Source of the DNA: Meghimatium bilineatum
Taxonomy: Eukaryota > Mollusca > Gastropoda > Stylommatophora > Philomycidae
NCBI GenBank assembly: GCA_034231615.1
Contig: CM067307.1
Coordinates: forward strand, 3,373,147 to 3,437,146
Direction of reading: 5' to 3'
Length of the DNA: 64,000 nucleotides
The translations under genes were made by a program, and so were the position numbers. Position 1 is the stretch's first letter. Each line of letters opens with the position of its first letter. Below the pieces are notes generated by a model, which was not told where the DNA came from, did not search any database, and was given only the letters and a program-made list of their open reading frames with translations. Positions 2,751-52,997 of the stretch are shown here, in pieces.

Positions 2751-3015
2751 GAATATGTCACCTGATGTTGCTAGATAGATAGATGGCAGATAAACTATCT
2801 TTTATCAGCTATGCAATAAGATCTGGAGAACAGAAACTTGGCAAAGAGACTGGAAACTTACAGCATACATCCCAATTCCCAAAAGCGGCGATGTGCAAAT
2901 ATGTTCAAATTATAGAACAATCGCCTTGATCAGCCAAGCCAGTAAAATACTACTGCACATTATCATGAAAAGAATACATAACAAGATGGAAGATGAGATC
3001 CGCAAACCTCAAACA

Positions 3016-3150
3016 GGATTCAGAACTGGTAGATGTACAAGAGGATTCAGAACTGGTAGATGTACAAGAGGATTCAGAATTGGTAGATGTACAAGAGGAT
3101 TCAGAACTGGTAGATGTACAAGAGGATTCAGAACTGGTAGATGTACAAGA
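3016..3150 (+). repeat. Minisatellite, 27-bp unit x5, inside RT coding sequence
   Basis: Exactly five 27-bp copies encoding GFRTGRCTR in frame (one copy has I for T). The unit corresponds to a conserved RT block that normally occurs once. Confidence 0.95.
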
Positions 3151-3228
3151 GAGCATATATATACCATGAGGATGATCATAGAGAAATGTAGAGAGTATAA
3201 CAGCGAATTACATGCATGCTTCATAGGC

Positions 3229-6900: not shown

Positions 6901-9900
6901 AACATTAATTAGTTGTACTAGTAACATTGATTAGTTGTACTAGTAACATTGATTAGTTGTACTAGTAACATTAATTAGTTGTACTAGTAACATTGATTAG
7001 TTGTACTAGTAACATTGATTAGTTGTACTAGTAACATTAATTAGTTGTACTAGTAACATTGATTAGTTGTACTAGTAACATTGATTAGTTGTACTAGTAA
7101 CATTGATTAGTTGTACTAGTAACATTGATTAGTTGTACTAGTAACATTGATTAGTTGTACTAGTAACATTAATTAGTTGTACTAGTAACATTGATTAGTT
7201 GTACTAGTAACATTAATTAGTTGTACTAGTAACATTAATTAGTTGTACTAGTAACATTAATTAGTTGTACTAGTAACATTAATTAGTTGTACTAGTAACA
7301 TTGATTAGTTGTACTAGTAACATTGATTAGTTGTACTAGTAACATTGATTAGTTGTACTAGTAACATTAATTAGTTGTAATAGTAACATTAATTAGTTGT
7401 ACTAGTAACATTGATTAGTTGTGCTAGTAACATTAATTAGTTGTACTAGTAACATTGATTAGTTGTACTAGTAACATTGATTAGTTGTACTAGTAACATT
7501 GATTAGTTGTACTAGTAACATTGATTAGTTGTACTAGTAACATTGATTAGTTGTACTAGTAACATTAATTAGTTGTACTAGTAACATTGATTAGTTGTAC
7601 TAGTAACATTGATTAGTTGTACTAGTAACATTAATTAGTTGTACTAGTAACATTAATTAGTTGTACTAGTAACATTGATTAGTTGTACTAGTAACATTGA
7701 TTAGTTGTACTAGTAACATTAATTAGTTGTACTAGTAACATTTATTAGTTGTACTAGTAACATTGATTAGTTGTACTAGTAACATTGATTAGTTGTACTA
7801 GTAACATTGATTAGTTGTACTAGTAACATTTATTAGTTGTACTAGTAACATTGATTAGTTGTACTAGTAACATTGATTAGTTGTATTAGTAACATTTATT
7901 AGTTGTACTAGTAACATTAATTAGTTGTACTAGTAACATTTATTAGTTGTACTAGTAACATTGGTTAGTTGTACTAGTAACATTAATTAGTTGTACTAGT
8001 AACATTAATTAGTTGTACTAGTAACATTAATTAGTTGTACTAGTAACATTAATTAGTTGTACTAGTAACATTTAATTAGTTGTACTAGTAACATTGATTA
8101 GTTGTACTAGTAACATTGATTAGTTGTACTAGTAACATTGATTAGTTGTACTAGTAACATTGATTAGTTGTACTAGTAACATTGATTAGTTGTACTAGTA
8201 ACATTGATTAGTTGTACTAGTAACATTGATTAGTTGTACTAGTAACATTGATTAGTTGTACTAGTAACATTGATTAGTTGTACTAGTAACATTGATTAGT
8301 TGTACTAGTAACATTGATTAGTTGTACTAGTAACATTGATTAGTTTTACTAGTAACATTGATTAGTTGTACTAGTAACATTGATTAGTTGTACTAGTAAC
8401 ATTGATTAGTTGTACTAGTAACATTGATTAGTTGTACTAGTAACATTGATTAGTTGTATTAGTAACATTGATTAGTTGTACTAGTAACATTGATTAGTTG
8501 TACTAGTAACATTGATTAGTTGTACTAGTAACATTGATTAGTTGTACTAGTAACATTGATTACTTGTACTAGTAACATTGATTAGTTGTACTAGTAACAT
8601 TGATTAGTTGTACTAGTAACATTGATTAGTTGTACTAGTAACATTAATTAGTTGTACTAGTAACATTGATTAGTTGTACTAGTAACATTGATTAGTTGTA
8701 CTAGTAACATTGATTAGTTGTACTAGTAACATTAATTAGTTGTACTAGTAACATTGATTAGTTGTACTAGTAACATTGATTAGTTGTACTAGTAACATTA
8801 ATTAGTTGTACTAGTAACATTGATTAGTTGTACTAGTAACATTGATTAGTTGTACTAGTAACATTGATTAGTTGTACTAGTAACATTGATTAGTTGTACT
8901 AGTAACATTGATTAGTTGTACTAGTAACATTAATTAGTTGTACTAGTAACATTGATTAGTTGTACTAGTAACATTAATTAGTTGTACTAGTAACATTAAT
9001 TAGTTGTACTAGTAACATTAATTAGTTGTACTAGTAACATTAATTAGTTGTACTAGTAGCATTAATTAGTTGTACTAGTAACATTGATTAGTTGTACTAG
9101 TAACATTGATTAGTTGTACTAGTAACATTAATTAGTTGTAATAGTAACATTAATTAGTTGTACTAGTAACATTGATTAGTTGTGCTAGTAACATTAATTA
9201 GTTGTACTAGTAACATTGATTAGTTGTACTAGTAACATTGATTAGTTGTACTAGTAACATTGATTAGTTGTACTAGTAACATTGATTAGTTGTACTAGTA
9301 ACATTGATTAGTTGTACTAGTAACATTAATTAGTTGTACTAGTAACATTGATTAGTTGTACTAGTAACATTGATTAGTTGTACTAGTAACATTGATTAGT
9401 TGTACTAGTAACATTGATTAGTTGTACTAGTAACATTGATTAGTTGTACTAGTAACATTAATTAGTTGTACTAGTAACATTGATTAGTTGTACTAGTAAC
9501 ATTGATTAGTTGTACTAGTAACATTGATTAGTTGTACTAGTAACATTAATTAGTTGTACTAGTAACATTGATTAGTTGTACTAGTAACATTGATTAGTTG
9601 TACTAGTAACATTAATTAGTTGTACTAGTAACATTAATTAGTTGTACTAGTAACATTGATTAGTTGTACTAGTAACATTGATTAGTTGTACTAGTAACAT
9701 TAATTAGTTGTACTAGTAACATTTATTAGTTGTACTAGTAACATTGATTAGTTGTACTAGTAACATTGATTAGTTATACTAGTAACATTGATTAGTTGTA
9801 CTAGTAACATTTATTAGTTGTACTAGTAACATTGATTAGTTGTACTAGTAACATTGATTAGTTGTACTAGTAACATTTATTAGTTGTACTAGTAACATTA

Positions 9901-12900
9901 ATTAGTTGTACTAGTAACATTTATTAGTTGTACTAGTAACATTGGTTAGTTGTACTAGTAACATTAATTAGTTGTACTAGTAACATTAATTAGTTGTACT
10001 AGTAACATTAATTAGTTGTACTAGTAACATTAATTAGTTGTACTAGTAACATTGATTAGTTGTACTAGTAACATTGATTAGTTGTACTAGTAACATTGAT
10101 TAGTTGTACTAGTAACATTGATTAGTTGTACTAGTAACATTGATTAGTTGTACTAGTAACATTGATTAGTTGTACTAGTAACATTGATTAGTTGTACTAG
10201 TAACATTGATTAGTTGTACTAGTAACATTGATTAGTTGTACTAGTAACATTGATTAGTTGTACTAGTAACATTGATTAGTTGTACTAGTAACATTGATTA
10301 GTTGTACTAGTAACATTGATTAGTTGTACTAGTAACATTGATTAGTTGTACTAGTAACATTGATTAGTTGTACTAGTAACATTGATTAGTTGTACTAGTA
10401 ACATTGATTAGTTGTACTAGTAACATTGATTAGTTGTATTAGTAACATTGATTAGTTGTACTAGTAACATTGATTAGTTGTACTAGTAACATTGATTAGT
10501 TGTACTAGTAACATTAATTAGTTGTACTAGTAACATTGATTAGTTGTACTAGTAACATTGATTAGTTGTACTAGTAACATTGATTAGTTGTACTAGTAAC
10601 ATTGATTAGTTGTACTAGTAACATTAATTAGTTGTACTAGTAACATTGATTAGTTGTACTAGTAACATTGATTAGTTGTACTAGTAACATTGATTAGTTG
10701 TACTAGTAACATTAATTAGTTGTACTAGTAACATTGATTAGTTGTACTAGTAACATTGATTAGTTGTACTAGTAACATTAATTAGTTGTACTAGTAACAT
10801 TGATTAGTTGTACTAGTAACATTGATTAGTTGTACTAGTAACATTGATTAGTTGTACTAGTAACATTGATTAGTTGTACTAGTAACATTAATTAGTTGTA
10901 CTAGTAACATTAATTAGTTGTACTAGTAACATTGATTAGTTGTACTAGTAACATTGATTAGTTGTACTAGTAACATTGATTAGTTGTACTAGTAACATTG
11001 ATTAGTTGTACTAGTAACATTGATTAGTTGTACTAGTAACATTAATTAGTTGTACTAGTAACATTAATTAATTGTACTAGTAACATTAATTAGTTGTACT
11101 AGTAACATTGATTAGTTGTACTAGTAACATTGATTAGTTGTACTAGTAACATTGATTAGTTGTACTAGTAACATTAATTAGTTGTACTAGTAACATTAAT
11201 TAGTTGTACTAGTAACATTGATTAGTTGTACTAGTAACATTGATTAGTTGTACTAGTAACATTGATTAGTTGTACTAGTAACATTGATTAGTTGTACTAG
11301 TAACATTGATTAGTTGTACTAGTAACATTGATTAGTTGTACTAGTAACATTGATTAGTTGTACTAGTAACATTGATTAGTTGTACTAGTAACATTGATTA
11401 GTTGTACTAGTAACATTGATTAGTTGTAATAGTAACATTGATTAGTTGTACTAGTAACATTGATTAGTTGTACTAGTAACATTGATTAGTTGTACTAGTA
11501 ACATTGATTAGTTGTACTAGTAACATTGATTAGTTGTACTAGTAACATTGATTAGTTGTACTAGTAACATTGATTAGTTGTACTAGTAACATTGATTAGT
11601 TGTACTAGTAACATTAATTAGTTGTACTAGTAACATTAATTAGTTGTACTAGTAACATTAATTAGTTGTACTAGTAACATTAATTAGTTGTACTAGTAAC
11701 ATTAATTAGTTGTACTAGTAACATTAATTAGTTGTACTAGTAACATTAATTAGTTGTACTAGTAACATTAATTAGTTGTACTAGTAACATTGATTAGTTG
11801 TACTAGTAACATTAATTAGTTGTACTAGTAACATTGACAATACTACATCATTTTTAGAGGTATATCCAAATTGGACTAACGTTCACGGTTGAAAGCAGCG
11901 TGCCACACCAAGAGATGTAGACCTTCTCTTTATTTAGCCACATCACCATGTTCCGTGTGCTATATGTTGTACTGTCCTAATTCATTATTCAGATATCTAT
12001 TAGTATTGTGTTTGTCCATTGTAATATCTTCTTGTATTGAATCATCTAATATATTATTTTTATTTTAGCTCCATGTTACCAGCCCCCGCCTCTGATTTCT
12101 GACGGACACCGAGTATTCTTTCATCTTGCCCATGCAAGCCGTGCTCGATACTTCTGCATTGCTGGTTACAAACTGGTGAACGGTTATCGATACATGACCT
12201 GTGAGTTTGGACAATGGACGGGGATTAGACCACGCTGTGAAGAAAGTTAGTATCGATACTTGACATTAGCTCCAACGTTCATGAACATTCTTTCTCATGT
12301 CGAATTCGAAGAGTGGTTTATCAATTATATCTCTATCTATTCGCTAAATCCGTTGTTGCCTTTCAGCGTTAGGAGTAGAAGAGTTTTCTGGAAACGACCC
12401 TCTTGTGTGTTGAGTATATTGTGGAATGTGTCGCCTATTTATTTCAGTAGTCCATCGTTTTCGTGGTCGGCCTCTGGATTAATTCTCCGCGGTCTTAAGC
12501 TAGTTGTCCTGCCTCTACCAGTGACATTTCAGGCATTACTGAATGTCTTTTGTCCAACGGCGTCTTGGGCGGCCTTTGCCCCTGTTTCCTTCTACCATTC
12601 CCTCCAGTCACACTCTCTCCATGCCATCGTCAGCTTCGAAAACAGCTATTACACTTTTATTGTTTTTATTATTAGAAGACGATGATCACAGTTTATGGGT
12701 CACGGTAAGAGAAGAGGGGGGTTGGAGAACATCGTAACAACTGGAAAGATCGAGGGTAAGAGAGACAGAGGAAGACAACGTGAGAAAATATTGCAAGCTT
12801 GGCATGATGCAGAATCATCAGAAACTATATTTAAATATATAACAGACAGAGGACTGTGGAGAGACATGATCGCCTACGTCGTAAGGTATGGTACCAATGA

Positions 12901-15900
12901 ATGAATGATTTTTTTTTAATGAAATCATCTCTGTTTCAGAGACACAACGTCTCTGACTACCTGAGACACAGCATCCCTACCACTGTTTCAGAGACACAGC
13001 GTCCCCGACCACCATTGTTTCAAAGATACAACGTCCCTGACTACCATTGTTTTAGAGACACAGCGTCCCTGACTACCATTGCTTCAGAGACACACCGTCC
13101 CTGACTGCCATTGTTTCAGAGGCATCGTGTCCCTGACTACCATTGTTTCAGAGAGACAGCGTCCCTGACTACCATTGTTTCAGAGACACAGAGCCAATTG
13201 TAACCAATTCATTTTCCATTATCATACCGCATGCATGCAGTCTATAGGACTCATCAATCATCGCTCAGACATGCATGAGTTCTACAGCAAACCCTCATGC
13301 ACTTTGAAGGATCGTAAGGGTGGCACTCTGGAAACACAACCATTAAGGGTCGTAAGGGTGACACTCTGTAAACATCAACACAAAATTCGTCATGTGTCCA
13401 TGTTCTCAGTTCCTTGTTCAAGTCTGGATAATCGTAATCTTGTCCAGTCTTTAATATTATCTATCGAAATTTCTTCTGGAACCCTCTTCTTCTTCATCCC
13501 ACATCCGTTCCCTGCACCAGAGTTTTAGACAGGAAATCGTGCCTTAACACGTGACCATACCACAAATGTTTGCGACGCTCCCCCAATGTCATGAATTGGT
13601 GCTATTGGCTTGCAAAATTGTCTCCCCATTGCTGAAAAAAGATCCAAGTTTTCTACTGCTCGGAATTTATTGCTATGGAAACAGTCAACAAATTATGTTT
13701 TACAGGTGATCAACATGATTAGGAAATGTCCATACATTGCATCAACCAATTGTTGACTCTCCCAACGCCTCGTCACTACCAACGATCAATAATTCAAGAA
13801 CATCCTATTTGCTTAACTATTCCGGAAAAAAAGGATCCCTCCTTGTTTTAAAGTATTTTTCATAAAACATACGGAAAAAATCATGTTTTTTTCCCAGTTT
13901 TATAAATTTATTTCAAATTCCAACAGTGTTATTATATAATTGGTGTATAAAAACAACAACTGTTTACGTCAATTTTATAAACCCCTCCCCCTTACCCCGT
14001 TAATAATAACTGTAAAACTGTTTATATTCCTCTCCCATCCTCCAACTGTGACATTAAGTATGGATATACCCTTAACTTGCGTATGTTTGAGTTATATCAT
14101 GAGCCACTCATAAACAAATATTTCCTTCAAATGAACAAAACGTACAGGAGGTACGTTACAAAATGCCTTTTCATTACGTCAATAATTTTTGGTCGATTTT
14201 TTACCCTATCAACCGCCCTTGTCAATAACTTTCAAGAATTCTGTCCCCCGCCCATCCACCCACTCTACCTCTGCTTATTATGTCACTAACTTTTTACCCG
14301 CCTTTCAGAAACAAATAATTTACAAAATGCTCGTAAAAATACGTTTTATTTCAAATTATTATAATTTTTGTTTAATTCTCACAATTTCACTGATGCCCCC
14401 CCTTCACCCGCCCCCTCCTGACAACAACTGTTAAACTAATCACACGCTCTTCTTAATTGTTGGCGTCATTTCTGGACAGCCCCAAATTAAAAGATAGTGT
14501 GACTTCATTTTAGCATTTCATTACTTCACTCTAACATTTCATTACTTCACTCTAACATTTCATAACTTCACTCTAACATTTCATAACTTCACTCTAACAT
14601 TTCATGACGTCACTCTAACATCTCATTACTTCACTCTAACATTTCATAACTTCACTCTAACATTTCATTACTTCACTCTAACATTTCATAACTTCACTCT
14701 AACATTTCATGACGTCACTCTAACATCTCATTACTTCACTCTAACATTTCATAACTTCACTCTAACATTTCATGACTTCACTCTAGCATTTCATAACTTC
14801 ACTCTAACATTTCATAACTTCACTCTAACATTTCATAACTTCACTCTAACATTTCATGACTTCACTCTAACATCTCATTACTTAACTCTAACATTTCATG
14901 ACTTCACTCTAACATCTCATTACTTCACTCTAACATTTCATGACTTCACTCTAACATCTCATTACTTCACTCTAATATTTCATAACTTCACTCTAACATT
15001 TCATGACGTCACTCTAACATTTCATGACTTCACTCTAACATTTCATAACTTCACTCTAACATTTCATAACTTCACTCTAACATTTCATAACTTCACTCTA
15101 ACATTTCATGACTTCACTCTAACATCTCATTACTTCACTCTAACATTTCATAACTTCACTCTAACATTTCATGACTTCGCTCTAGCATTTCATAACTTCA
15201 CTCTAACATTTCATAACTTCACTCTAACATTTCATAACTTCACTCTAACATCTCATGACTTCACTCTAGCATTTCATTACTTCACTCTAACATTTCATAT
15301 CTTCACTCTAGCATTTCATAACTTCACTCTAAAATTTCATGACTTCACTCTAACATCTCATTACTTCACTCTAACATTTCATGACTTCACTCTACAATTT
15401 CATGACTTCACTCTAACATTTCATGACTTCACTCTAACATCTCATTACTTCACTCTAACATTTCATGACTTCACTCTAAAATTTCATGACTTCACTCTAA
15501 CATTTCATGACTTCACTCTAACATCTCATGACTTCACTGTAACATCTCATTACTTCACTCTAACATTTCATGACCTCACTCTAGCATTTCATAACTTCAC
15601 TCTAACATTTCATAACTTCACTCTAACATTGCATTACTTCACTCTAGCATTGCATGAGTTCACTCTAGCATTTAATGATTTTATATCTTCAACAACCGTA
15701 TCTTTCCCTTGTTACAGATTTCTGTCCAAATCCAGGAGCCTTAGAAAGCGGAGAAGTCTTAAAAATTGGAACTCATGGCAAGTTTCAGTTCAGCGAGTAC
15801 ATTATTACAATCAAACATGGGGATCGCTTGGAGTACAGATGCCACAAAGAACATAAATTAGTCGGTCCTAAAGGTGCAGCTTGTGTCAATGGAAAATGGA

Positions 15901-15983
15901 GCCCCAGCGACAAACCCAAATGTGTCATATCAAAACATCCTCTCTTTAACAAACTATGGCATCCATTCGAGGAAGCAGAATGA
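3760..15983 (+). CDS. hig: Hikaru genki-like CCP-domain protein, 3' end of gene (three exons)
   Basis: Three exons joined at phase-1 introns encode three consecutive CCP (sushi) domains and the C-terminus, about 206 residues. CCP modules are about 60-residue folds with two disulfides and a conserved tryptophan, found in secreted or surface proteins. Terminal-exon features ([36 protein letters not shown], then HP) match my memory of the C-terminal CCP of Hikaru genki, a secreted synaptic-cleft matrix protein of Drosophila cholinergic synapses; that assignment is inference. Upstream exons (signal peptide, Ig, further CCPs) must lie before the window. The introns are 8.1 and 3.5 kb and mostly minisatellite. 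It could be another CCP protein, but the CCP nature is secure. Confidence 0.7.
4301..4650 (+). mobile_element. LINE remnant, RT C-terminus
   Basis: Open + frame with [26 protein letters not shown], then WMDCRCGT; after a stop and frame shift [15 protein letters not shown] follows. This is the same tail as at 196-700, 12.7 kb and 54 kb. It lies inside the CCP gene intron in sense orientation. Confidence 0.75.
4630..4692. repeat. (GATT)n microsatellite
   Basis: Interrupted GATT/CATT repeats. Confidence 0.8.
4735..5100 (+). mobile_element. LINE remnant, RT C-terminal tail
   Basis: Contains [19 protein letters not shown] and, in the same frame, [20 protein letters not shown], the standard terminal motif of a group of invertebrate LINEs. 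The last 60 bp recur inverted at 28660-28735. The 22-bp satellite begins 20 bp after this tail, so the satellite may have started in the LINE 3' end. Confidence 0.78.
5121..11836. repeat. Giant minisatellite, 22-bp unit, about 305 copies
   Basis: An uninterrupted 6.7 kb array of ATTGATTAGTTGTACTAGTA plus AC, with the common variant ATTAATTAG. The unit holds the palindrome TACTAGTA. Marker variants recur at set distances and show higher-order structure: GTAATAG at 5418, 7377 and 9138; ATTGGTTAG at 6224, 7963 and 9944; a 23-bp unit with an extra T at 6331 and 8070; TTACTTG at 6821 and 8560. The array fills 83% of the intron between the first two CCP exons. The unit carries stops in several frames, and nothing suggests coding. 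Confidence 0.99.
11837..12068. other. Intron sequence before CCP exon 2
   Basis: Unique AT-rich sequence ending in a polypyrimidine tract and TATTTTAG acceptor. I see nothing else. Confidence 0.7.
12069..12245 (+). CDS. hig: CCP exon 2 in window (59 codons, phase 1-1)
   Basis: Reads [34 protein letters not shown] and [17 protein letters not shown]. Four cysteines and the W before the last cysteine fit the sushi consensus. Acceptor TTTTATTTTAG; donor GAAGAAA|GTTAGT. Its first two bases complete a codon with the G left by the previous exon. Confidence 0.93.
12370..12620 (-). mobile_element. LINE remnants, minus-strand C-terminal tails
   Basis: Reverse-complement reading gives [16 protein letters not shown]-type sequence and then [20 protein letters not shown] and LKGNNGF, the last matching the tail of the longer LINE at 18.8-20.2 kb. 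Probably two truncated tails fused. They lie in the second CCP intron, antisense. Confidence 0.65.
12670..12905 (+). mobile_element. LINE remnant, RT C-terminus
   Basis: Open + frame: [36 protein letters not shown], then [16 protein letters not shown] and a stop. It is the best preserved example of the tail also seen at 0.2-0.7, 4.3 and 54 kb. It is placed head to head with the minus-strand tail at 12.4-12.6 kb. Confidence 0.8.
12933..13195. repeat. Minisatellite, about 32-bp unit x8
   Basis: Imperfect tandem copies of a unit containing TTTCAGAGACACAGCGTCCC and GACTACCATTG. The open frame across it is a by-product of the repeat. Confidence 0.9.
13196..14500. other. Second CCP intron, unique and C-rich interspersed sequence
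   Basis: There is a 36-bp duplication near 13305-13370 (GTAAGGGTG...CACTCTG twice). From about 13890 to 14480 there are C-rich tracts next to GTCAAT motifs, complementary to those at 720-1345, so this may be an inverted copy of that element. No exon-like segment was found. Confidence 0.4.
14501..15674. repeat. Minisatellite, 21-bp unit, about 56 copies, next to a splice acceptor
   Basis: Copies of CATTTCATAACTTCACTCTAA with A/G and T/C variants. Most units carry CTCTAAC or CTCTAGC, close to a metazoan branch-point consensus. The array stops 43 bp before the acceptor of the terminal CCP exon; the remaining 43 bp supply the pyrimidine tract. Confidence 0.98.
15718..15983 (+). CDS. hig: Terminal CCP exon and stop codon
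   Basis: Acceptor CTTGTTACAG, then [62 protein letters not shown] and an acidic end PFEEAE before TGA. The module is longer between its first and second cysteines than a standard CCP, which I associate with the last CCP of Hikaru genki proteins. A longer open frame starting at 15675 is intron read-through and not used. Confidence 0.9.
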
Positions 15984-41294: not shown

Positions 41295-41548
41295 CTAAGA
41301 TTGTGGGTTGGGATTTTCTAACATCTCCATGAGAAAAGTGTCAATTGGCTGGTCCCCAATCAACTTAAAGAAAAATAGGTGTTCCAAACATTTCAGGCCA
41401 ATTGATCTGAGTGCCGGCAGGCGAAGAAGTAGCTTTGCAAAACGGCCAGGTTCTTCTGGGTACCGAGATTTTGTATATTCTTCCAAAGATGCGTAGACTT
41501 TCTCTCGGAGTTGTTCCACCTCTTGTACAGCTGCTAATCCTTTGGCAT
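41295..41548 (-). CDS. RXR: RXR terminal coding exon: LBD helices 9-12
   Basis: Acceptor TTTCTCATTTAG, then (D)[55 protein letters not shown] and [14 protein letters not shown] with stop TAG. It contains the dimerisation helix 10, the organotin-binding cysteine position and AF-2. No close AATAAA follows; the nearest minus-strand match is at 40776-40781 within an array. Confidence 0.97.
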
Positions 41549-44500
41549 CTAAATGAGAAATTCAAAGTCCAAAAAATTAATCACCTATCTATCTATCTAT
41601 CATATGGGCTAGATGTGGGTTGTGGGCTTGTAGGCAGATCAATATCCTTGGCATCTAACAGGAAAATCTATAAGAATAAAACCATAAGAATTGTTTATTG
41701 GCTCTTTTTTTAAGATATTTCATGCACTTCCTATGTTTCGCCGCGTAAATTTATCTAGTATGACTGCAATGAAATCTTGAATAAGCCTAGAATGATGTAA
41801 TATATATTGCATCACATTGCATACTATGATCATGAACACATCATCCATAGTTGACTGCACCATTTTCTGATGCAATGCAATATTACTTTCAGGCAGCTGC
41901 TGAAGTAAGCTGACATCAGCAGTGTACTATACAAAGCCCAGTCGGAAAGAATGAGTATTTAAAATATTTCAGACTTTGTGTGAGACAGTTTAAGCTACAA
42001 TAACATAACACTTATTATTTTATCAATTTACATATAATACAAAACAGTAATGCTTCGACAGTGTGTTAATTTTGTGGACAATTTCTGCTATATCTGTGGG
42101 GAAGTGACATTTGCCAAACAGAACAAAAGTCTGAGTTCTAAAGTGAAGAAGGCATATCATCTTTACTTCGGATGCCAGGGTGGTGGCCAAGATAAGCCTT
42201 TGGTACCCCACATATGCCATGTTACATGTACAGCACAGCTTTCACAGTGGCTGAATGGCACAAGACCATCAATGTCATTTGAAGTCCCCATGGTGTGCAG
42301 AGAGTAAAGCAACCACATAACTGACAGTTACTTCTGCTTGGTTTCTCTTATTTCCGGCAGAATAATGCAGCACAAGAAGTCGATAATAGTCTACCCAAAC
42401 ATTCCATCTGCATTGATATCAGTTCCACAAGGTGAGGGACTTCCTATTCCAGAACCTCCAGCCAGAATATTATTCTCTTGATACATCTTATGAGGACAAG
42501 GGTGAGCCGACCTGTCTTCTCCTGGTCCGTCAGCATGCAGTGATCCAGATTTTCGCTGTGGTGCATCATTAACCCTACACAGAATAACACATGGAGAACT
42601 AAATGACCTGGTTCATGATTTAGACGTATCCAGGAACAGAATTACTCAGATCAAGACTCTAGCAACAGAATCTCCTAAAAGAAGATGCCACAATTACTTC
42701 ATAATGAAAGCACCACGAGCAGTTATAGTCTTTCTTCAGAAAAGAAATAATCTGGTATTCCGTTCCGATATTGAGGGCCTCATGATTGCCTAAAAAATAA
42801 ATCATGACCCACAAGAATGGAGACTATTTGTAGATTTGTCAAAACGGAGTCTTAAATCTGTGCTTTTTGCACAATGGTAACCGTCTTTCATCTATTCCAG
42901 TAGTGCATGCTGTCCACATGGAAGAAACATACGATAACTTTAAACAAATACTGAATTACATTGATTATAACAAGTACAGCTGGCACGTATGTGCTGATTT
43001 GGATGTAGTTGCCCTTTTAATGTGACTGCAGCAGGGATATACAAAATACATGTGACTTTAATGTGAGTGGGATAGCTGAGCAGGGAATTGTACTACTTGC
43101 TGAAGGAATGAATTTTCAGACAAAATGTTGTAGTTGGAGAGAAGAATATCCAACACCCAGCTCTGGCCAAGTCTCACAAAATGAAAAATTTTGAGAAAGT
43201 CATGGACCGAACTTTGGCAGCTTTGTGATACCTGCATGAAAAATTCCCAGTGAATAAATACTCAGTGAAACAAAGAGTAATCCAGGAAAAGGGTAATAAA
43301 TTTTTGCTAATACTTGATAACACACATAATGACACACACTGTAAAGAGGAAGTGGGAGTTTATGTGGGTCCTCAGATTCGAGGGCTCTTAAAAGATTCAA
43401 CAACTTGCTGCAGGGTGATGTGAAACAAGCATGGAATGCGTTTTACCTATCGTACACCAACATTCTCTAGAGTTAGGACAGAAAACTACAAGGAACTAGC
43501 AGAAGACAAGCTGATGAAGTATCAGATATTTGGCTACAATATGTCTCTAAAGATCCACTTCCTTCATTCCCATCTCAATTTCTTACCTGGGAACTGTATC
43601 ATGGTTAGTGATGAACATGGCAAACATTTTCATCAAAATATCACAACAATGGAACAAAAATACCAGATAACTCCGCATGTACTAAGCCATAGAAACTATT
43701 AGGAAGGATGGCCAGTTCCCTTCCTTGCTGTTTTTACCTTCCCAAGCCCATGCGTCATGTACCAATTTACAGCTGGGTTGACTAGAGAAACGGTCATGCC
43801 AGTTGAGAAATCACAACCCAGATTTTTTTAATCCAGATGTAGTTGTGAAAAGTCACACTGTAACCTGGTGATAGTAAAAAAGCTTACTATCAACTACCCA
43901 GTAGGCTTACGCACAATATTGTCTCGAACCACTACTAGAAAATCAACACATCTGGGATAGTAAATGTTCACATTATCTTTAGTATTCAAGAAAAATATAG
44001 ATCCAATATAGTATTTCTATCCTACGTGCCTGGGTTAAACAGGATATTTCTATCCTACGTACCTGGGTTAAACAGGATATTTCTATCCTACGTACCTGGG
44101 TTAAACAGGATATGCCTATCCTACGTACCTGGGTTAAACAGGATATTTCTATCCTACGTAACTGGGTTAAACAGGATATTTCTATTCTACGTACCTGGGT
44201 TAAGCAGGATATTTCTATCCTACGTAACTGGGTTAAACAGGATATTTCTATCCTACGTACCTGGGTTAAACAGGATATTTCTCTCCTACGTAACTGGGTT
44301 AAACAGGATATTTCTATCCTACGTATCTGGGTTAAACAGGATATTTCTATCCTACGTACCTGGGTTAAACAGGATATTTCTATCCTACGTACCTGGGTTA
44401 AACAGGACAACCGCTCTCAGGCAGCCAAGCTCAGTCTTGTCCATCTTCATTTCTCTCATTTTGGCCACTAATTCTGTCAGGACGCGGTCAAAGATGGTGC

Positions 44501-47500
44501 CAACTCCTGCTTGGTGTGCACTGCTGCGATGAACATGTAGACCCGTGGCTAGAAGGATGCCATCTTTTGCCATAATAGATCGATGAGAGAAGCCAGCAAT
44601 GAGAAGCTCATTCCAACCTGTGAGACATTCGTTACAGATTAGAAGACAAACCAATTATATGTTAACTATTATGAAATGGTAACAGGGTAACATTGGTTAC
44701 AAGTTAACCTTACGGGCTCCATAGGTGTCTATTGTACCCGACGCCATTACATAACTAGGGCCAGTAGACACCTCCAGTCACCTCCGATGCTATGCCCAAA
44801 TTCATCAGTACAGAATCACACAAATTAAAGCTCATATGACGTAGAATTCCCGCCACATAAAGCTAGGAATATGCCACAGCCTAAAGGTCAAATTCCTTTA
44901 CATATTACGATTGTACGAAGGAGAAAGCTGGCTGATTTTGTAAGTATTTTGTAAACTGGCTGATTAAGTCATTTTGTTTAACAAAAATGTTTAAAACTAT
45001 AAACAAAAACTGAGATTAAAACTCATCGCAGGGCAAATAGATCTCCAAATCAATTCATCAAAAACAAAAATTATGGATCACACAAATTCTCCTATCTAGG
45101 AAGCAAATTAACACTCGACGGTGATGTCATGATAGAAATTACAACTCGCATTGCACTAGCATAAAGTGTCTTTAACAGACTGTCTAATATCTGGAGATCA
45201 AAATCAATCAGCACATGCACGAAAATACGCTTATTTAATTCCTGCGTTATTCCGGTGCTAGCATATGGATGTGAGAGCTGAAAAAGCTCTTTATCTTCAG
45301 AAAAGAAATTACTGAGTTTCAAGAACAAATGTCTTCGTAGGATAACTAACACCTTTTTGAGTGAATTCAAATCGAATGATAAAGTCAGAGAAGAGACACA
45401 TCAAAGTTTCATCACAGATGTTATCAGAAAACAGTGTTCTTCCTACATCGGACATGTCCTATGCACAGACATCAACAGAATACACCACCAATCTCTTGAA
45501 TGGATACCTACAGGCAAAAGAGCCAGGGGTAGACCAAAAGAAACACTCAGAACAACAATACTTAGAGAAAGTAAAACAATCAGTATTCATTAGGGGTGTA
45601 CCGGATTTCGGCTCCAGCAAATCCGGAATCCAGCCATTTTTACAAATCCGGCTTCTGTCCAATTTTGCCGGATTTAGGCCGGATTTGTGTTGCCTAGTCA
45701 CGTGAATTTTCTGTAATAGCACAGTAGCACTTCCAGGTTTACTATTTCTCTCTGATGTAAATAAGAATTTTAATAAACACTCATTTTGAATTTTAATGGT
45801 GCATTACTTTATGAGTTTGTGGTACTTGAATATTTCTTATTTTCATAAATTTCTGTGGTCTTGCCGATAAAATAAAATGACATAAAAATCTAAGTGATAC
45901 AGCACTGTTTGGTATTACTTTAAGGTTAAAGATGATGATTCAGCGAAGGTAATATTTAAGTTGTGTGACAAACAGTTCTCGGATGATCAGGTCGCCCCAA
46001 AGACTTCTCAACATCATCAATGCAGACCCATTTGTGATCGATGCACAGGAAAAGCTATGACAAAATGATGGAAAAGAAAGCATCACCGAAGGCCAGTGTA
46101 TTGTCGTGGCGACCACATCTATGATGAATCCGTGTTTGTACAAAGCAAGCAGCAGTAGCCAGCAGTCAATTGTGCAGGCATGGGACCAGGCCAAAATGTG
46201 GAACATCAACTGCAGCTGTGTGTGTGTGATGGTCTTTTGAGTCTAAAGTATGTTGCTGACATCATCAGTACTGGAAGAAAATTGGTAGGACATTTCAAAC
46301 ACTCTTCATCAGCAACTAAACTCACGAGCTCATCTGATGTTAGCAGCTAACTCCATTATTCATTCAGCAAACAGTCAGTGCACAGGATCCATCAGCTACT
46401 AGTAGCAGTACTAGTGTTTTGACTTCTGTGAGCACTGCCACACAGTATGAGTCCAGCCTATAGAGCTGTTTTGACACAATTGAAGAAGAAAATCCCACCG
46501 CATATCGTTCTGCAAGTGCCGATGGCAACAGCTTTAACACTGAGGTGACACAGTACCCGTCAGAGCCACTTTAAACTCGACAGTCATATCCAGTTTCATA
46601 GTGGAATTCCAATAAGCAAAGATTTCCAAGTATGGCTAGACTGGCGCAGGCATTTCTTGCACCACCACCTACAAGTGTGCCATCGGAAAGGCTGTTCAGT
46701 TCTGCAGGAGACATTATCACTGACCACCGTAGTAGCCTTGTACCATAAAATGCAGACGTTGATTTTCCTAAAATACAACTCGTCCCTTCTTGACTCTGAG
46801 AGTTCAACTTCAGTCATAATGAAGACTGACTGACTGAAATAGTGAAAGTACTGAATGAATGTATTTCAATAAATTCAATCTGTTCAATGTACTGTTGTTG
46901 TGAGTTGTAACACGAGCTGCCAAATTGCCAACTGAAAACAATGTGAAAACTAAAAACTGAAAACTAAAAATTAAAATTACTAAATTAGCATTATGTGCTT
47001 ATGTATTATGTTTCATCTTGAGCTTATGGAACTTGATATTACTTATTCTAATGTAAATGTAATTATTTTACATTTAAATGATTTAATATGAGTATATGTC
47101 ATCATTGTCATGTCTATAGTAATGAACTGCAGTAATGAACAGTCGAGTGACTCCACTCACCTAAGTCAAGTCATGTAGTACGTTATTTTATTTTCTTTAT
47201 TTAATTTTTTCACTTCATAAATCCGGCCAAATCTGGATTTCAAAATTTGAATCCGGTACAGCCCTAGTATTCATACTATTCAATAAATGCACAGAATAGC
47301 TATGAACAGACAGAATTGGAGAGATCTGACCTCTGCCCTATGCGCTAACTTCAGTGCATAAGGAAAATTAATAAATGAATATACATGTAATTTTTCAAAC
47401 AATAGATAGAACTATATACAGGTAATTTTTGAAACAGATAGAACTATATACAGGCAGTTTTTGAGACACTAGATAGAACCATATACAGGTATTTTTGATA

Positions 47501-50500
47501 CAATAGATAGAACCATATACAGGTATTTTTGATACAATAGATAGAACCATATACAGGTAGTTTTTGATACAATAGATAGAACCATATACAGGTAGTTTTT
47601 GATACAATAGATAGAACTATATACAGGTATTTTTGATACAATAGATAGAACCATATACAGGTAGTTTTTGATACAATAGATAGAACTATATACAGGTAGT
47701 TTTTGATACGATAAAACCAAAATACAGGTAGTTTTTGAAACAATAGATAGAACTATATGCAGGTAGTTTTGGAGAAAAGAGATGTGCTGGAGGAGACTGT
47801 TATCTATAAGTGTTTCTCAAGTACACAAGTGCCAGTTCACAATCAGTAAGATGAATGTGCCTTTGAGCATAAATATATCTCCATGACCTGATATATTGCA
47901 AACACTTTTTTCTGGGTAAATTTTCTATTTACATAAGCTATATTTTATCTTTTATTATAGGATATTTTACACACATTTATATAAGATATATATGAGCCTT
48001 GAGCTACAATCTCTGTGCGATGGGATAAAAATATGTGTTTCAAAGCAAGTTAGTGCAGCTAAGTGGGAACAGGTGTTCATAACCAATAACATAGCCCATG
48101 AAGTAGAAGATAGCACACCTGCTCGCAAGAGAATCACCTGGTCCTCAAGAGGTAGTTCTGTGAAGTGAGGTATCCGCTTTGCCCATTCCACCAAGGTAAA
48201 GAGTTGTTTGTCTGCTGCTTGGCAGATATTAGTCACCGGATCTTTCTACGGATAGATATACAAGGAACAATTTAGAAAAAACAAAAAGCAACTGTTTAAC
48301 AATAATAACGATGACACAAACACATGTATCTCAACATCAGAGGAATACAACAGCAAGACAGATTTACAATAACTTCTGCGGTATATCTGGCTAAACAATA
48401 ACTGAAGCTTCACAGGCTATGTGGCTAGATAAGATGAAGATGCCCATAGATGTTCTATAGCTCTATTGCTCTGTTCTATTGTTCGCGCTCATTCTTATTA
48501 TTATCTAGATCTACCACTAGACCTCGCACGTAGCAGGACAATGATCCTATTAAATTTCCAGAAGCGAGTAGTCCAACCGACATGACAAGATTAACCAGCA
48601 TGTGGAAAACCAGGATCACCACCCGTGTTAAAATCAACTTATATCAATCTTTAGATTTGTCAATATTTCAATATGGCTGTGAGACCTGGACCCTAACTGT
48701 GAACTAAGAGACAAGAATCCAGGCGTTTGAAAGCAAATGCTATAGACGTGTGTGATTGATATAAAATCCATACAGAGAAGCGTAATAGATAAAGTGAAAT
48801 TCCATTATAACAACTTGGTAGAGATAGACAAAATGTGTTTGCAGTAACAGAAATTTGCTATATACAATACAAAAAATATGTTTAAAAAAATATTATTGGG
48901 ACTTTTGAAACTTGTTTTTACATAGGGAAATTTGTTATAAAAGAATGCGCTATAGAGGATTTCACTGTATACAAATAGACAGATAAAACAGCACCAAACT
49001 AGAACTGTGTGAACCGTGTTCAAACTAGAACACCGAACTAGAACTGTGTGAACCGTGTTCAAACTAGAACACCGAACTAGAACTGTGTTCAAACTAGAAC
49101 ACCGAACTAGAACTGTGTGAACCGTGTTCAAACTAGAACACCGAACTAGAACTGTGTGAACCGTGTTCAAAGTAGAACATTTGTTATAAAAGAATGAGCT
49201 CTAGAGGGATTCCACTGTATACAAATAGACAGATAAAACAGCACCAAACTAGAACAGGGAGCAACTACAGTGATAGATTTATTGAGACGTGGATAGGCGC
49301 ACATATGGACTTGTCCGTTGAGTAATGATAACTTGTAGTAGTAACTCTTACTGGAGACATCAGCAGATATTATCTTCTAAACACCTTTATTCTTAGGAAT
49401 TCTCATGTGAAAGTGTGGGATTAATCATGTCCTTAGGAATTCACATGTGAAAGTATGGTATTAAACATGTCCTTAGGAATTCACATGTGAAAGTGTGGGA
49501 TTAACCATGTCCTTAGGAATTCACATGTGAAAGTGTGGGGATAATTATGTCCAGACTATTCCTTCCTTCTTGCCTTATTTTTTGATTTTTTCCCTTTATA
49601 CCCCTTTATGCCTTGCAGCGTCAGAGGTAGAAGAGTTCTCTAGAGATGGTATTTTTGTGTTCTTCATATATGTTTGTTTTCGCTGACCCATATTTAATTC
49701 ATCTTTTGCATAGTCTGCTTCTAGCTTTGTATTCATTGTGCCTGTATGTGAAAACCACTTAATCTGTTGTTTTCTGATGTAATCCAGGATTGACATTGTG
49801 TTTGTTAGTCGTCTGATGTTTTCATTCCTGATTCTCTCTTATTGTTACTCTGGGAATTCTACATATACATGTCATTTCTGTGGAAACAAGTTTCCTTGTG
49901 TCTTTTATTGAGTCTACATTCACACTGACAACATAATGATGGTTGATGATTGTTTGTTGTTGTGCATGTTCACATACCTAATCATTCATTAATGTTGTTC
50001 ATGCAAGATTTTATTGCTTTCCTTCTTTTTCGACCCTCAACTGTTGTTAAAAAAATTAGGTACAGTACGACAGCAGCTGTCACTTTTTAACAAAAATATG
50101 TACATATGTAATTATTTAAGGAAATGAAATATCGATAAAGACGTATTAAGACTATTGGCAGATCCAGCGATCTGACCAATCCACATTGAGAGCCCCCCCC
50201 CCACCCCTTGGATGATGGGGGGGGGGGGGGGGTCCTCAGTGTGCAGATTAATGCAGACCTACCGACTTTCTAATCTTAGTTCAGCAAGGTAGCGAAACCT
50301 GAACAAAAATATGTATAAAACCTGGCCCCTGCTCCCTGTCATGAACTAAAAATAGTTTTAGAAAGTGAAAATCTACAAATACATCCAGATAACTGACCTG
50401 AGTATCAATATAGTTGTCAATCTTGGGATCGACAGCCAGCTCGGCTTCTAAGATTTGCTCCACAGGCATGTCGTTGTTGGCTCCGCTGGTACTCTCGACC

Positions 50501-52997
50501 TCTCCATCACCTTTCTCTTTAACTCTCTGTCTCTCTTCCTGCACAGCTGCAACAAATGAAATAGATTTTTAACGTTCAGCAAAAAGAAACAGTTAACAAC
50601 AAAAAAACTGTCAATATTGTGTTTTTCCCATTAGCTAGTTTATGAGAGGTTGTCAATGACTTGTGTGATAAAGGCTACATGCCATTGCTGCCACCATGTC
50701 ACTCCTTACTGGAAGTAAAATCCTGGACGTCACTGATGTGAGACCAGCACTCTAACCTCTTGGTCATTCGCTACATAAGAAACAGCTTAACAGAGTGGAA
50801 TCGCACAATGTCTGTCTTTCTAACTTCATTCTTATTAAGTTGTCTCCGTTGTGTTAAAGGGGAGCAATGAATAGCAACACTGTTCACCTTTCATGCATGT
50901 TGTCAGAGCGCAACTAAGGAGGTTATGGGGTGAAGCTGATGGTCCTATCTCATATATAGTCAAAGTGAACTAGAAGTCATGCTGAAGTCAAATGTGTCAG
51001 GTCAGAAGCTCCACATATCGTAGCTAAGCTGTAAACCATGACACCACATATTGTTCACTGGACTGCATCCTGCTAATCTTCAGGAGTTTGAGAATGAACA
51101 CAGAATGGTGAAATTAAAACAGTTGGCAGCCAATGCTTTCATGAGATTAAGCAGCAACCCAGCGATCTGTGATTTTCTAGGTAATATAAATGTTTAGTAG
51201 GTTGCCATTGTTTTGTGAACAGTCCAGATACATAGGATCCTGTAGTTTCACCTATAGGAAATAATAATCCATCACTGCTAACTCTTCTATCGAGGTCAAC
51301 TCCTTGAAGTGGAGATGAGGCTTAGTCCAACCAACAGAGGCTGGAAGCATTGGTCAGGCCATTCCTGACATCGAGCAGGACCACATTCCTGCCCAAGTAA
51401 TCACAGATGCTGAAACCAGAGAACTCAGGCCAAGAGGTGCACCAGCAACCATTGTATCACGTAACACGGCTAGATAACACGTCTTCACAAATACTAACTT
51501 TTGATGTGATATTTCTGCTTTCACGAATAATCAGGTTACAGCGCCAAAAACTTCAATGAAATGAGCAATCCACTTCTTATCGCACACTGAGCACCTGCAA
51601 TTCAAAAGTAGTGCTGTCATGGTAGAACATGTTTGAACAACTCCCTTTCTGTACTTACAAGAAAAACTCCCTCTGAAAGAGTGAGTTGCCCTGCATGTAA
51701 CTAGAGGGTATTGCTCACTAAATGTACCATCTGAGCACATAAAGAACGAGTGAATTACCTCAGTAGAAACCTTCACATGGAAATATTCACTGCTCAGACA
51801 TCATCAGATTTTCTCACATAAGAAGAAAATTAAAGGGAACATTGATTAAAACTTTCCTGAGTTGCTTCCTACATCCCAGGGCAGACGATTGTGATCCTAC
51901 TTTTTACACAATAAACTAGAACTCCAAATCTCAGTTGCCTCCTACAACATGCCAAGAAAGAAGACAGTAGCATTATCTTTGTACCCAAAACTAAAAGTCC
52001 AGACCCCAGTTGCCACACAGGTTCTTTTATAAACTTATATAGGATATAACTCTAAATGAATTTTATAAACTGGATGTAATAAACAGTGATAATTACTTGT
52101 GATGATGTAACAAATGGTGATAATTACTTGTGATGATGTAACAAATGGTGATAATTACTTGTGATGATGTAACAAATGGTGATAATTACTTGTGATGATG
52201 TAACAAATGGTGATAATTACTTGTGATGATGTAACAAATGGTGATAATTACTTGTGATGATGTAACAAATGGTGATAATTACTTGTGATGATGTAACAAA
52301 TGGTGATAATTACTTGTTATGATGTAACAAATTGTGATAATTACTTGTGATGGTGTAATAAATGATAATTGCTTGTGATGGTGTAATAAATGATGATAAT
52401 TACTTGTAATGGTGTAATAAATGATAATTACTTGTGATGGTGTAATAAATGATGATAATTACTTGTAATGGTGTAATAAATGATGATAATTACTTGTGAT
52501 GGTGTAATAAATGATGATAATTACTTGTGATGGTGTAATAAATGATGATAATTACTTGTGATGGTGTAATAAATGATAATTACTTGTGATGGTGTAATAA
52601 ATGATAATTACTTGTGATGATGTAACAAATGATAATTACTTGTGATGATGTAACAAATGTTGATAATTACTTGTGATGATGTAACAAATGATAATTGCTT
52701 GTGATGATGTAATAAATTATAATTACTTGTGATGATGTAATAAATGGTAATAATTACTTGTGATGGTGTAACAAACGGTGATAATTACTTGCGATGATTC
52801 AACAACTTACAAAATAATCCAGAAATTATAACAACTGACCTTCTCGTTTCATCCCCATAGACAGACATTTCATATATCTACAGTATTGGCACCTGTTCCT
52901 CTGCCGTTTGTCGATCATACAGTTTTTGTCATCACGACAAGCGTATGTCAGATCCTTGCGGACTGTGCGTTTAAAGAACCCTTTACATCCCTCGCAA
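41295..52997 (-). CDS. RXR: Retinoid X receptor (RXR / NR2B), second zinc finger to C-terminus, five exons
   Basis: Joining exons 52997-52840, 50546-50398, 48245-48119, 44617-44393 and 41548-41295 gives about 303 residues with every splice phase correct. RXR is a nuclear receptor that heterodimerises with other receptors on DNA and binds 9-cis-retinoic acid; in gastropods it is the target of organotins linked to imposex (established knowledge). Visible: the P-box CEGCKG, second zinc finger, T-box [11 protein letters not shown], hinge, and a full ligand-binding domain ending in the AF-2 helix FLMEML. Equivalents of the ligand-contact residues Trp305, Asn306, Phe313, Arg316 and Cys432 of human RXRalpha are all kept ([23 protein letters not shown]). 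The A/B domain and first zinc finger are not in the window. There is no sign of pseudogene decay. Confidence 0.97.
41581..42040. other. RXR intron, no further feature
   Basis: Contains a short (CTAT)n run at 41584-41602 and unique AT-rich sequence. Confidence 0.5.
42045..43705 (+). pseudogene. Degraded member of a multicopy uncharacterised protein family, antisense in RXR intron
   Basis: Starts as an open frame with [70 protein letters not shown]. After stops and shifts come [41 protein letters not shown] and finally [20 protein letters not shown] and [26 protein letters not shown] recognise this layout from many near-identical hypothetical proteins in arthropod and mollusc genomes that behave like a transposon-borne or amplified gene; their function is unknown to me. 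At least eight stops or frame breaks. The N-terminal C..C pair and the late HFxHSHLxF..N motif are preserved. Confidence 0.78.
44021..44416 (-). repeat. Minisatellite, 33-bp unit x12, derived from the RXR exon/donor junction
   Basis: On the minus strand each unit contains 15 bases identical to the end of the RXR exon (TCCTGTTTAACCCAG) followed by the donor GTACGTAGG and intron sequence. The first copy in transcript order is the real exon end; eleven follow in the intron. Copies at 44351, 44252, 44186, 44120, 44087 and 44054 keep GT; the 44021 copy has GC; four have lost the G-T (TT or AT). Confidence 0.97.
44393..44617 (-). CDS. RXR: RXR exon: LBD helices 5-9
   Basis: Acceptor GAATGTCTCACAG, then (G)[54 protein letters not shown] and [13 protein letters not shown]; donor CCCAG|GTACGT at 44392. 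225 bp, phases 1 and 1. It forms most of the ligand pocket. Its 3' end is the first unit of the 33-bp array. Confidence 0.98.
44660..45035. other. RXR intron, no further feature
   Basis: Unique sequence. Confidence 0.5.
45040..47365 (+). mobile_element. LINE remnant split by a hAT insertion
   Basis: Before the insertion, + frames give [51 protein letters not shown], then [27 protein letters not shown] and LRTTILRES. After removing 45591-47266 and one target duplication the same frame continues (one TAA) into [19 protein letters not shown] and stop, the expected LINE terminus. The LINE was thus in place first. Confidence 0.87.
45591..47266 (+). mobile_element. hAT transposon with intact termini and 8-bp target duplication, decayed transposase
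   Basis: Ends TAGGGGTGTACCGGATT and, inverted, TAGGGCTGTACCGGATT (16 of 17 matching), flanked by GTATTCAT at 45583-45590 and 47267-47274. Subterminal repeats of the GCCGGATTT / AATCCGGC kind occur inside both ends. Coding relics on + include [42 protein letters not shown] and the C-terminal dimerisation motif [20 protein letters not shown]. This is a ZBED-type hAT transposase. At 1676 bp and with multiple stops it cannot encode an active enzyme, but the ends could still be mobilised. Confidence 0.95.
47390..47775. repeat. Minisatellite, about 35-bp unit x11
   Basis: Units of ATAGATAGAACCATATACAG followed by GTAGTTTTTGATACA, with 33- and 35-bp variants. Minus frames with [12 protein letters not shown] repeats are artefacts. 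Confidence 0.95.
47776..48118. other. RXR intron, no further feature
   Basis: Unique AT-rich sequence following the donor in transcript order. Confidence 0.5.
48119..48245 (-). CDS. RXR: RXR exon: LBD helices 3-4
   Basis: Acceptor CTATCCGTAG, then [40 protein letters not shown] and RA(G); donor GAGCAG|GTGTGC. 127 bp, phase 0 in and 1 out. It includes the nuclear-receptor signature WAK..P.F..L...DQ.iLL. Confidence 0.98.
48575..48785 (+). mobile_element. LINE remnant, RT thumb region
   Basis: The + frame reads [38 protein letters not shown], then [13 protein letters not shown], the R...IW....I....K..Ly.s....LYG.ETW..........F..kc.R.. block of non-LTR polyproteins. Confidence 0.83.
48792..48968. 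mobile_element. Tigger/pogo-type MITE
   Basis: Left end AAGTGAAATTCCATTATAAC and right end CTATAGAGGATTTCACTG are inverted copies, next to TA on both sides (ATA... and TATAC). Terminal sequence resembles CAGTGRAATCCCYCTATAG at 21020. The right end and 40 bp of flank are repeated at 49180-49258. Confidence 0.7.
49010..49180. repeat. Minisatellite, 38-bp unit x4-5, between duplicated MITE ends
   Basis: Units of GAACCGTGTTCAAACTAGAA followed by CACCGAACTAGAACTGTGT. The array is bounded by two direct copies (48930-49010, 49180-49258) of the MITE end plus its flank ACAAATAGACAGATAAAACA. Confidence 0.93.
49390..49555. repeat. Minisatellite, 40-bp unit x4
   Basis: Units of CTTAGGAATTCACATGTGAA followed by AGTGTGGGATTAACCATGTC. 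Confidence 0.93.
49600..49930 (-). mobile_element. LINE remnant, RT C-terminus
   Basis: The minus frame reads [39 protein letters not shown], and upstream codons for a [12 protein letters not shown]-like block; it parallels the tail at 18.9-19.2 kb (YIKSHRSNGLH). Confidence 0.7.
49931..50189. other. RXR intron, no further feature
   Basis: Unique sequence. Confidence 0.5.
50190..50233. repeat. Poly-C / poly-G inverted homopolymers
   Basis: A run of ten C, CCACCCC, a short loop and sixteen G. It can fold as a hairpin and is likely to be slippery in sequencing; the true lengths are uncertain. Confidence 0.85.
50398..50546 (-). CDS. RXR: RXR exon: T-box and hinge
   Basis: Acceptor CATTTGTTGCAG, then (A)[39 protein letters not shown] and [10 protein letters not shown]; donor ACTCAG|GTCAGT. 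149 bp. The exon starts inside the T-box right after KRE, the place where RXR isoforms with a short insertion have been reported in gastropods (from memory). No alternative AG within 40 bp upstream gives an in-frame 15-base extension by eye. Confidence 0.98.
50695..50780 (-). mobile_element. tRNA-derived SINE head
   Basis: Reverse complement has ATGACCAAGAGGTTAGAGTG and a B box region like GGATTTTACTTCC, diverged. Same head as at 32.3 kb. Confidence 0.55.
50860..51110 (+). repeat. SINE-like dispersed family, copy
   Basis: From GGGGAGCAATGAATAGCAAC to GGAGTTTGAGAATGAACACA, with CTAAGGAGGTTATGGGGTG and CTGCATCCTGCTAATCTTCA. Near full length and representative of the family. Confidence 0.85.
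51115..52060. other. RXR intron, no gene seen
   Basis: A small dispersed-repeat copy is at 51175-51255 (GGTTGCCATTGTTTTGTGAA). A related palindrome-free stretch at 51280-51440 has mixed composition but no homology I recognise. Confidence 0.5.
52065..52800. repeat. Minisatellite, 28/31-bp unit, about 24 copies, just inside the RXR intron
   Basis: Units of GATGATGTAACAAATGGTGA followed by TAATTACTTGT, with GTAATAAATGAT variants lacking three bases. In transcript orientation the array begins 38 bases after the donor of the zinc-finger exon, and each unit carries CAA|GTAATT, a weak donor-like motif. Confidence 0.97.
52840..52997 (-). CDS. RXR: RXR exon: second zinc finger of the DNA-binding domain
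   Basis: Acceptor TTTTTCCCCTATAG, then (S)[39 protein letters not shown] and [13 protein letters not shown]; donor GAAG|GTCAGT. 158 bp. The P-box CEGCKG sets half-site recognition and the D-box lies in CRDDKNC. The serine codon is split with the missing upstream exon (…HYGVYS), which must lie further upstream on minus. Confidence 0.98.

Follow-up and report, generated by a model that had tools for sequence, protein, structure and literature searches.

A donor-spanning minisatellite at an RXR exon of a gastropod mollusc and a second such array at a kinase exon

In the window analysed here, a stretch of 64,000 nucleotides from the gastropod mollusc Meghimatium bilineatum, a 33-bp segment across the 5' splice site of an RXR ligand-binding-domain exon stands in twelve tandem copies on the minus strand, the first of which holds the authentic exon boundary while the other eleven lie wholly within the intron. 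The array is an amplification of the exon's own donor, and we consider it about 75% probable that it belongs to the donor-spanning minisatellites described as 'mirages', tolerated and subject to ordinary turnover, in which unit 1 is the working donor and the decoys are mostly or wholly ignored. A survey of the same genome brought to light a further array of this type at the donor of a kinase exon, and both genes have a paralogue in which the junction is free of repeats.

The array was read directly from the sequence at 44407-44012 as twelve units without insertions or deletions, in agreement with TRF (period 33, 12.0 copies, 95% matches, 0% indels, 44012-44407). The exon (44617-44393) terminates in CTGTTTAACCCAG, followed by GTACGTAGGATAGAAATA, and the unit is TCCTGTTTAACCCAG/GTACGTAGGATAGAAATA (a slash marks the exon-intron junction throughout), that is, 15 bases of exon end and 18 bases of donor and intron, as a preliminary description of this DNA had recognized. 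The latter had given the extent of the array as 44021..44416, which is correct in length and displaced by 9 bases, and it had placed the true junction at 44393/44392. This position is upheld by an in-frame join to 41548 (CCA G/AT, encoding P-D), the product of which matches a Pfam hormone-receptor domain and finds its best PDB match in 1xiu, 'RXR-like protein' (E 9.3e-100), which we take to be a protein of the snail Biomphalaria. The tally of six decoys with an intact CCCAG/GTACGT, one GC donor and four mutated copies also holds, and the six intact decoys lie at the positions given. The unit thus spans exon end, donor and intron start and its splice signal is kept in many but not all copies (GT in 6/11 decoys), both of which are features of a mirage. 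CAG is kept in 12/12 units and CAGGT in 7/12, and the alternating units 4, 6 and 8 share TT, which bears on unit copying or concerted evolution.

Table 1. Features of the RXR gene and its array in the window, and the kinase donor array elsewhere in the genome.
Feature	Position	Strand	Basis
RXR ligand-binding-domain exon, with exonic part of unit 1; acceptor CACAG/GTTGG	44393..44617	-	sequence and PDB match
Array-containing intron, 2844 bp; acceptor TTTAG/ATGCC	41549..44392	-	sequence
Last RXR coding exon, ending at stop TAG	41295..41548	-	sequence and PDB match
Upstream RXR ligand-binding exon	48119..48245	-	sequence
RXR hinge exon	50398..50546	-	sequence
RXR DNA-binding exon (second zinc finger)	52840..52997	-	sequence
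First zinc-finger exon of RXR	near 65928-65872, just outside the window	-	search in 144 kb
Array, twelve 33-bp units	44012..44407	-	sequence reading and TRF
True donor GT, unit 1	44391..44392	-	in-frame join to 41548 yields RXR
TAG, in frame if true donor skipped	44385..44387	-	decoy-product translation
Decoy donor unit 2, GT intact	44358..44359	-	sequence
Broken decoy unit 3, AT	44325..44326	-	sequence
Broken decoy unit 4, TT	44292..44293	-	sequence
Decoy donor unit 5, GT intact	44259..44260	-	sequence
Broken decoy unit 6, TT	44226..44227	-	sequence
Decoy donor unit 7, GT intact	44193..44194	-	sequence
Broken decoy unit 8, TT	44160..44161	-	sequence
Decoy donor unit 9, GT intact	44127..44128	-	sequence
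Decoy donor unit 10, GT intact	44094..44095	-	sequence
Decoy donor unit 11, GT intact	44061..44062	-	sequence
Unit 12, GC replacing GT	44028..44029	-	sequence
Kinase donor array	L032 2145-3639 and L060 105-3418, C13:18748204 onward		sequence

The intact decoys are good donor sites. They are identical to the true donor from -3 to +6, and their duplex with U1 is calculated at -9.8 kcal/mol, compared to -6.5 to -8.1 kcal/mol for three further RXR donors of the window that were scored, -11.3 for the donor of a second RXR gene and -6.9 for the kinase donor. Translation of the alternative products bore out the expectation that any decoy would lead to N-P-G-T-stop, since all of them read LFNPGT-stop, with the TAG of the unit 1 intronic part as the stop codon; a premature stop, as expected of unproductive splicing, is accordingly present in every decoy product. 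Splicing to any decoy removes the final 84 residues of RXR, so that the predicted truncation without helices 10-12 stands in that respect, although it was drawn too narrowly, as helix 9 is presumably lost as well if RXR anatomy is applied. In vertebrates, nonsense-mediated decay follows a 50-nt rule. The suggestion that decoy transcripts would be degraded is compatible with the distance between stop and new junction for five intact decoys (unit 5 onward, 124-322 nt), whereas the unit 2 product, with just 25 nt, would escape decay under this rule.

RNA structure was also considered as a mask over the decoy donors. None of 100 plain shuffles folds as well as the array RNA (z -3.96), but 49/300 tiled shuffled units do, so that the fold is not special; in the predicted folding the 9-base donor windows are mostly paired in all 12 units (unpaired probability 0.001-0.109) and that of unit 1 is no more open than those of the decoys, for which reason the idea was rejected.

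The genome searched comprises 1.61 Gb and 32 contigs, with the window on contig C10. A protein search identified a second RXR gene on contig C24 (L017 and L015, C24:16772474-16775472), with 92% and 95% identity over two exons. Its homologous exon ends CCCAG/GTAAGCAAATAATC at the same place as the unit 1 junction of the window, CCCAG/GTAAGC is present once, and a donor-spanning array is absent from the locus as read at this junction; among the two RXR genes the array is confined to the C10 copy. Third codon positions of this exon differ between the two genes at 31/74 sites and their introns give no significant alignment (best E 0.25), indicating that the RXR duplication is old. Kinase matches of similar score and length likewise pair up between contigs (C11/C13, C16/C25, C6/C20 and C18/C19, next to C10/C24 for RXR), which suggests an old large-scale duplication. 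At the C24 RXR locus, a 31-bp array ends about 22 bases upstream of the acceptor of the homologous exon.

A genome search with the RXR array, by a method that skips simple repeats and very common words, returned no further copy. Dispersal as an element was considered for one region, C25:81976554-81977592, which matched at 67-68% identity, and was rejected as its unit is a different one of 34 bp that shares, by eye, about a dozen bases with the RXR unit.

Judged from its sequence, the array at the kinase exon on C13 is a second, independent donor-spanning case in this genome and, with about a hundred near-identical donors, a more extreme example than that of RXR. The exon (L032) ends TACAGCTATGTTGATGAG/GTAAAC and runs into units of the CTATGTTGATGAGGTAAAC type, the exon end and donor TATGTTGATGAG/GTAAAC (GATGAG/GTAAAC) occurring 102 times over about 3.3 kb in 66 units of 34 bp, 34 of 30 bp and 2 of 28 bp when up to 5 substitutions are permitted in unit finding. 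GT is intact in all of them, and hence in 101/101 decoys, and a block of unit types recurs at units 12-16 and 82-86. The first 30-bp unit reads open, but most units are of 34 bp and shift the frame, which is kept only by the 34 units of 30 bp. In the paralogue on C11 (L031) a single GAG/GTAAAC is found at the same place, and a different 45-bp array lies further on. The exon end was inferred from this paralogue and from PSKH1-type kinases; a fragment of the next exon, as expected from such kinases, had no match in the stretches examined around the locus.

These two loci (L016, which is the RXR exon, and L032) are the donor-spanning arrays encountered among 63 surveyed matches, comprising 50 of 135 kinase matches (30 loci plus 20) and 13 from the RXR search, two of them exons of the window itself. 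Among the latter 13, an array overlaps the match at the window's own RXR exon alone. At seven other loci (L017, L023, L057, L070, L075, L076 and L079) an array lies at most 25 bases from the match and appears, by eye, to stop short of the junction; match edges in the survey are approximate, junctions beyond RXR and L031/L032 were judged by eye, and for many of the long kinase matches there is probably no intron close by. One of the seven is a minus-strand exon of another nuclear receptor, homologous to the array-bearing RXR exon, in which a 23-bp array (L023 1426-1496) begins at about intron position +7 and just misses the donor. Another has a 33-bp array (L079 2-318) whose end lies about 15 bases upstream of what is probably the acceptor of a kinase exon.

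With regard to the genomic context, 48 merged tandem arrays cover 30% of the window, the RXR gene region is 17% array, and tandem repeats make up 25% of the 144 kb from the window onward; around two sets of kinase matches their share of the flanking sequence is 9.9% and 8.7%. Uniform placement at a density that includes the RXR array's own length predicts about 1.5 overlaps of an array with one of the 9 RXR junctions in the window. Given this density, chance placement suffices to account for a junction-spanning array and no special cause is needed; the 33-bp repeat itself is far beyond chance, its position on the junction is not.

Other arrays in the window include a 6.7-kb array of a 22-bp unit (5121-11837, about 305 copies, 97% matches), a 27-bp array with about five in-frame copies (3015-3151) within a reverse-transcriptase fragment whose RVT_1 match falls under the Pfam cut-off, and a 21-bp array of 56 copies (14500-15983) that reaches as far as a plus-strand exon probably encoding a Sushi domain.

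According to the preferred explanation, tandem duplication of the segment across the 5' splice site would have taken place in one of two RXR genes, and ordinary minisatellite turnover would have spread the copies, all of which lie beyond the authentic junction, in the intron. Unit 1 would have stayed the working donor, because unit 1 alone gives RXR; the spliceosome would commit to it, and the remaining units, mostly or wholly ignored, would be removed with the intron. Occasional use of an intact decoy would lead to a premature stop, with consequences that would be neutral or slightly deleterious but not regulatory, and the same kind of process would have produced the 102-copy kinase array. 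On the other hand, where 5' splice sites are duplicated, the intron-proximal one is favoured, and such a preference would select a decoy here, which counts against this explanation. SRSF1 is described as favouring the intron-proximal 5' site and hnRNP A1 the intron-distal one (PMC5585400), and it has been suggested for amphioxus that boundary copies could serve as cryptic sites (PMC3087553).

The alternative that fares best, although tentative, is compatible with a tolerated minisatellite and holds that the decoys are leaky and harmful, as every decoy product stops early, so that mutations destroying GT would be favoured and spread within the array. It draws on the strong pairing of the decoys with U1 relative to the other scored RXR donors and on the distribution of changes among the units: of 10 substitutions from the consensus, 5 affect GT, which takes up two of the 33 columns (by cell, Fisher 1.1e-4; 3/8 distinct variant types, binomial 0.0099), and both of these columns are variable (p 0.040). 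The RXR GT pair is alone among 562 adjacent column pairs in holding at least 3/8 of the types and half of the cells, in an uneven control of 17 arrays in which those with many types cannot easily attain that share (26 regional arrays were selected, 9 with fewer than 5 variant types were dropped, and the RXR array is among those kept). This bias suggests that the RXR decoys may not be wholly invisible to splicing and, if real, a preferential loss of GT would point to harm rather than use. Its weight is reduced by several observations: the same G-to-T in units 4, 6 and 8 accounts for three of the five GT-column substitutions and is probably one event copied, some adjacent pair with 3 of 8 types arises by chance in 25% of simulations, the bias comes from one allele, and the kinase array has kept its GT throughout. 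The contrast in broken GT between RXR decoys (5/11) and kinase decoys (0/101) might reflect a different cost of decoy use, a guess from two cases and a weak one, since only the 30-bp kinase units keep the frame.

A somewhat more doubtful extension joins these elements, proposing that in a repeat-rich lineage donor-spanning minisatellites recur in conserved genes and that the first-transcribed donor wins. Such a choice over up to 101 near-identical copies would be contrary to the intron-proximal rule, and selection would break GTs where decoy use stops translation at once, as in RXR.

Recursive splicing, in which some decoys would be dual-specific AG/GT sites that are joined to unit 1 as acceptors before serving as donors themselves, with multiples of 33 bases removed silently and a correct mRNA as the outcome, is unlikely. 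The motif itself is available, as the counts of CAG and CAGGT given above indicate, pyrimidines occupy 10-11/17 positions upstream of the unit AGs compared to 9/17 at the exon's own acceptor, and AGGT sites serving as both 5' and 3' sites have been documented, also within tandem repeats (PMC10809524). However, the acceptor features at the unit AGs amount to a modest pyrimidine tract without a well-placed YTNAY motif in the 40 bases scanned, where the A of the lone YTNAY lies 6 bases away from the AG, and other AGs intervene.

Slightly less likely again is the proposal of the preliminary description that unproductive splicing, governed by the length of the array or the integrity of its donors, adjusts how much functional RXR is made. 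The uniform early stop, and the decay-compatible distances from unit 5 onward, are what such a mechanism would call for, but conservation across gene copies, also looked for in unproductive splicing, fails, as the array is missing from the C24 paralogue. Moreover, a larger array of the same kind with 101 intact decoys exists at the kinase, the location is expected from the repeat density, the amphioxus cases are reported as harmless (PMC3087553, PMC3902484), and the RXR isoforms described in a scallop and two snails differ in the T-box (PMC3774650). The proposal was therefore left unsupported, and regulation is the least supported of the readings that involve splicing to decoys because the array is not kept in the paralogue and its genomic context is ordinary; the RXR array looks like tolerated repeat DNA more than a gene dial. 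An assembly artefact that inflated or misplaced the array or its copy number is very improbable, for even though tandem arrays are difficult to assemble, the unit variants form an ordered pattern, unit 1 runs into a valid exon and a second case exists with its own paralogue control.

These findings extend boundary-spanning minisatellites beyond amphioxus. They also supply two natural cases of donor competition in which the affected gene has a paralogue without the array elsewhere in the genome, cases that bear on how the spliceosome distinguishes a real donor from identical neighbours. With such gene pairs, of which one member carries an array, donor choice could be tested in nature. Should the RXR decoys be leaky, a hormone-receptor gene would vary with the length of its array.

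In amphioxus, mirages have been described as minisatellite-like tandem copies of exon-intron boundaries in Adh3, BflGb6, BflGb9, TnC and PGBD5, reported not to disturb splicing according to RT-PCR for the globins, earlier data for Adh3 and likewise for TnC (PMC3087553, PMC3902484). Like the RXR array, they consist of tandem boundary copies of which many but not all carry splice signals. The present cases differ in being from a mollusc and in their dimensions (33 bp x12 in RXR, 28-34 bp x102 in the kinase), in that skipping of the RXR donor meets a stop and that GT-biased decay is seen in RXR, and in being known from DNA sequence alone. No boundary-spanning minisatellite in a mollusc was found among the open-licence PMC papers listed, and this seems, as far as that literature shows, to be a known kind of array in a new phylum. 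In human, variable internal tandem repeats include minisatellites whose units average about 30 bp, and in duplicated genes some of them lie at exon-intron boundaries; as described, these alter mature transcripts or create introns, whereas exon and intron position in RXR are unchanged (PMC2812944). The dual-specific AGGT sites of UBC resemble the RXR units in forming a tandem array of AG/GT motifs, but in UBC the units are coding and the number spliced varies (PMC10809524), whereas those of RXR are intronic and only putative acceptors. Finally, in intron 4 of DOK7, as with the RXR decoys, the choice between neighbouring donors is reported to decide between full-length and truncated protein, the difference being that DOK7 has a pair of sites that are not identical, together with a known SRSF1 element (PMC5585400), and RXR has an array.
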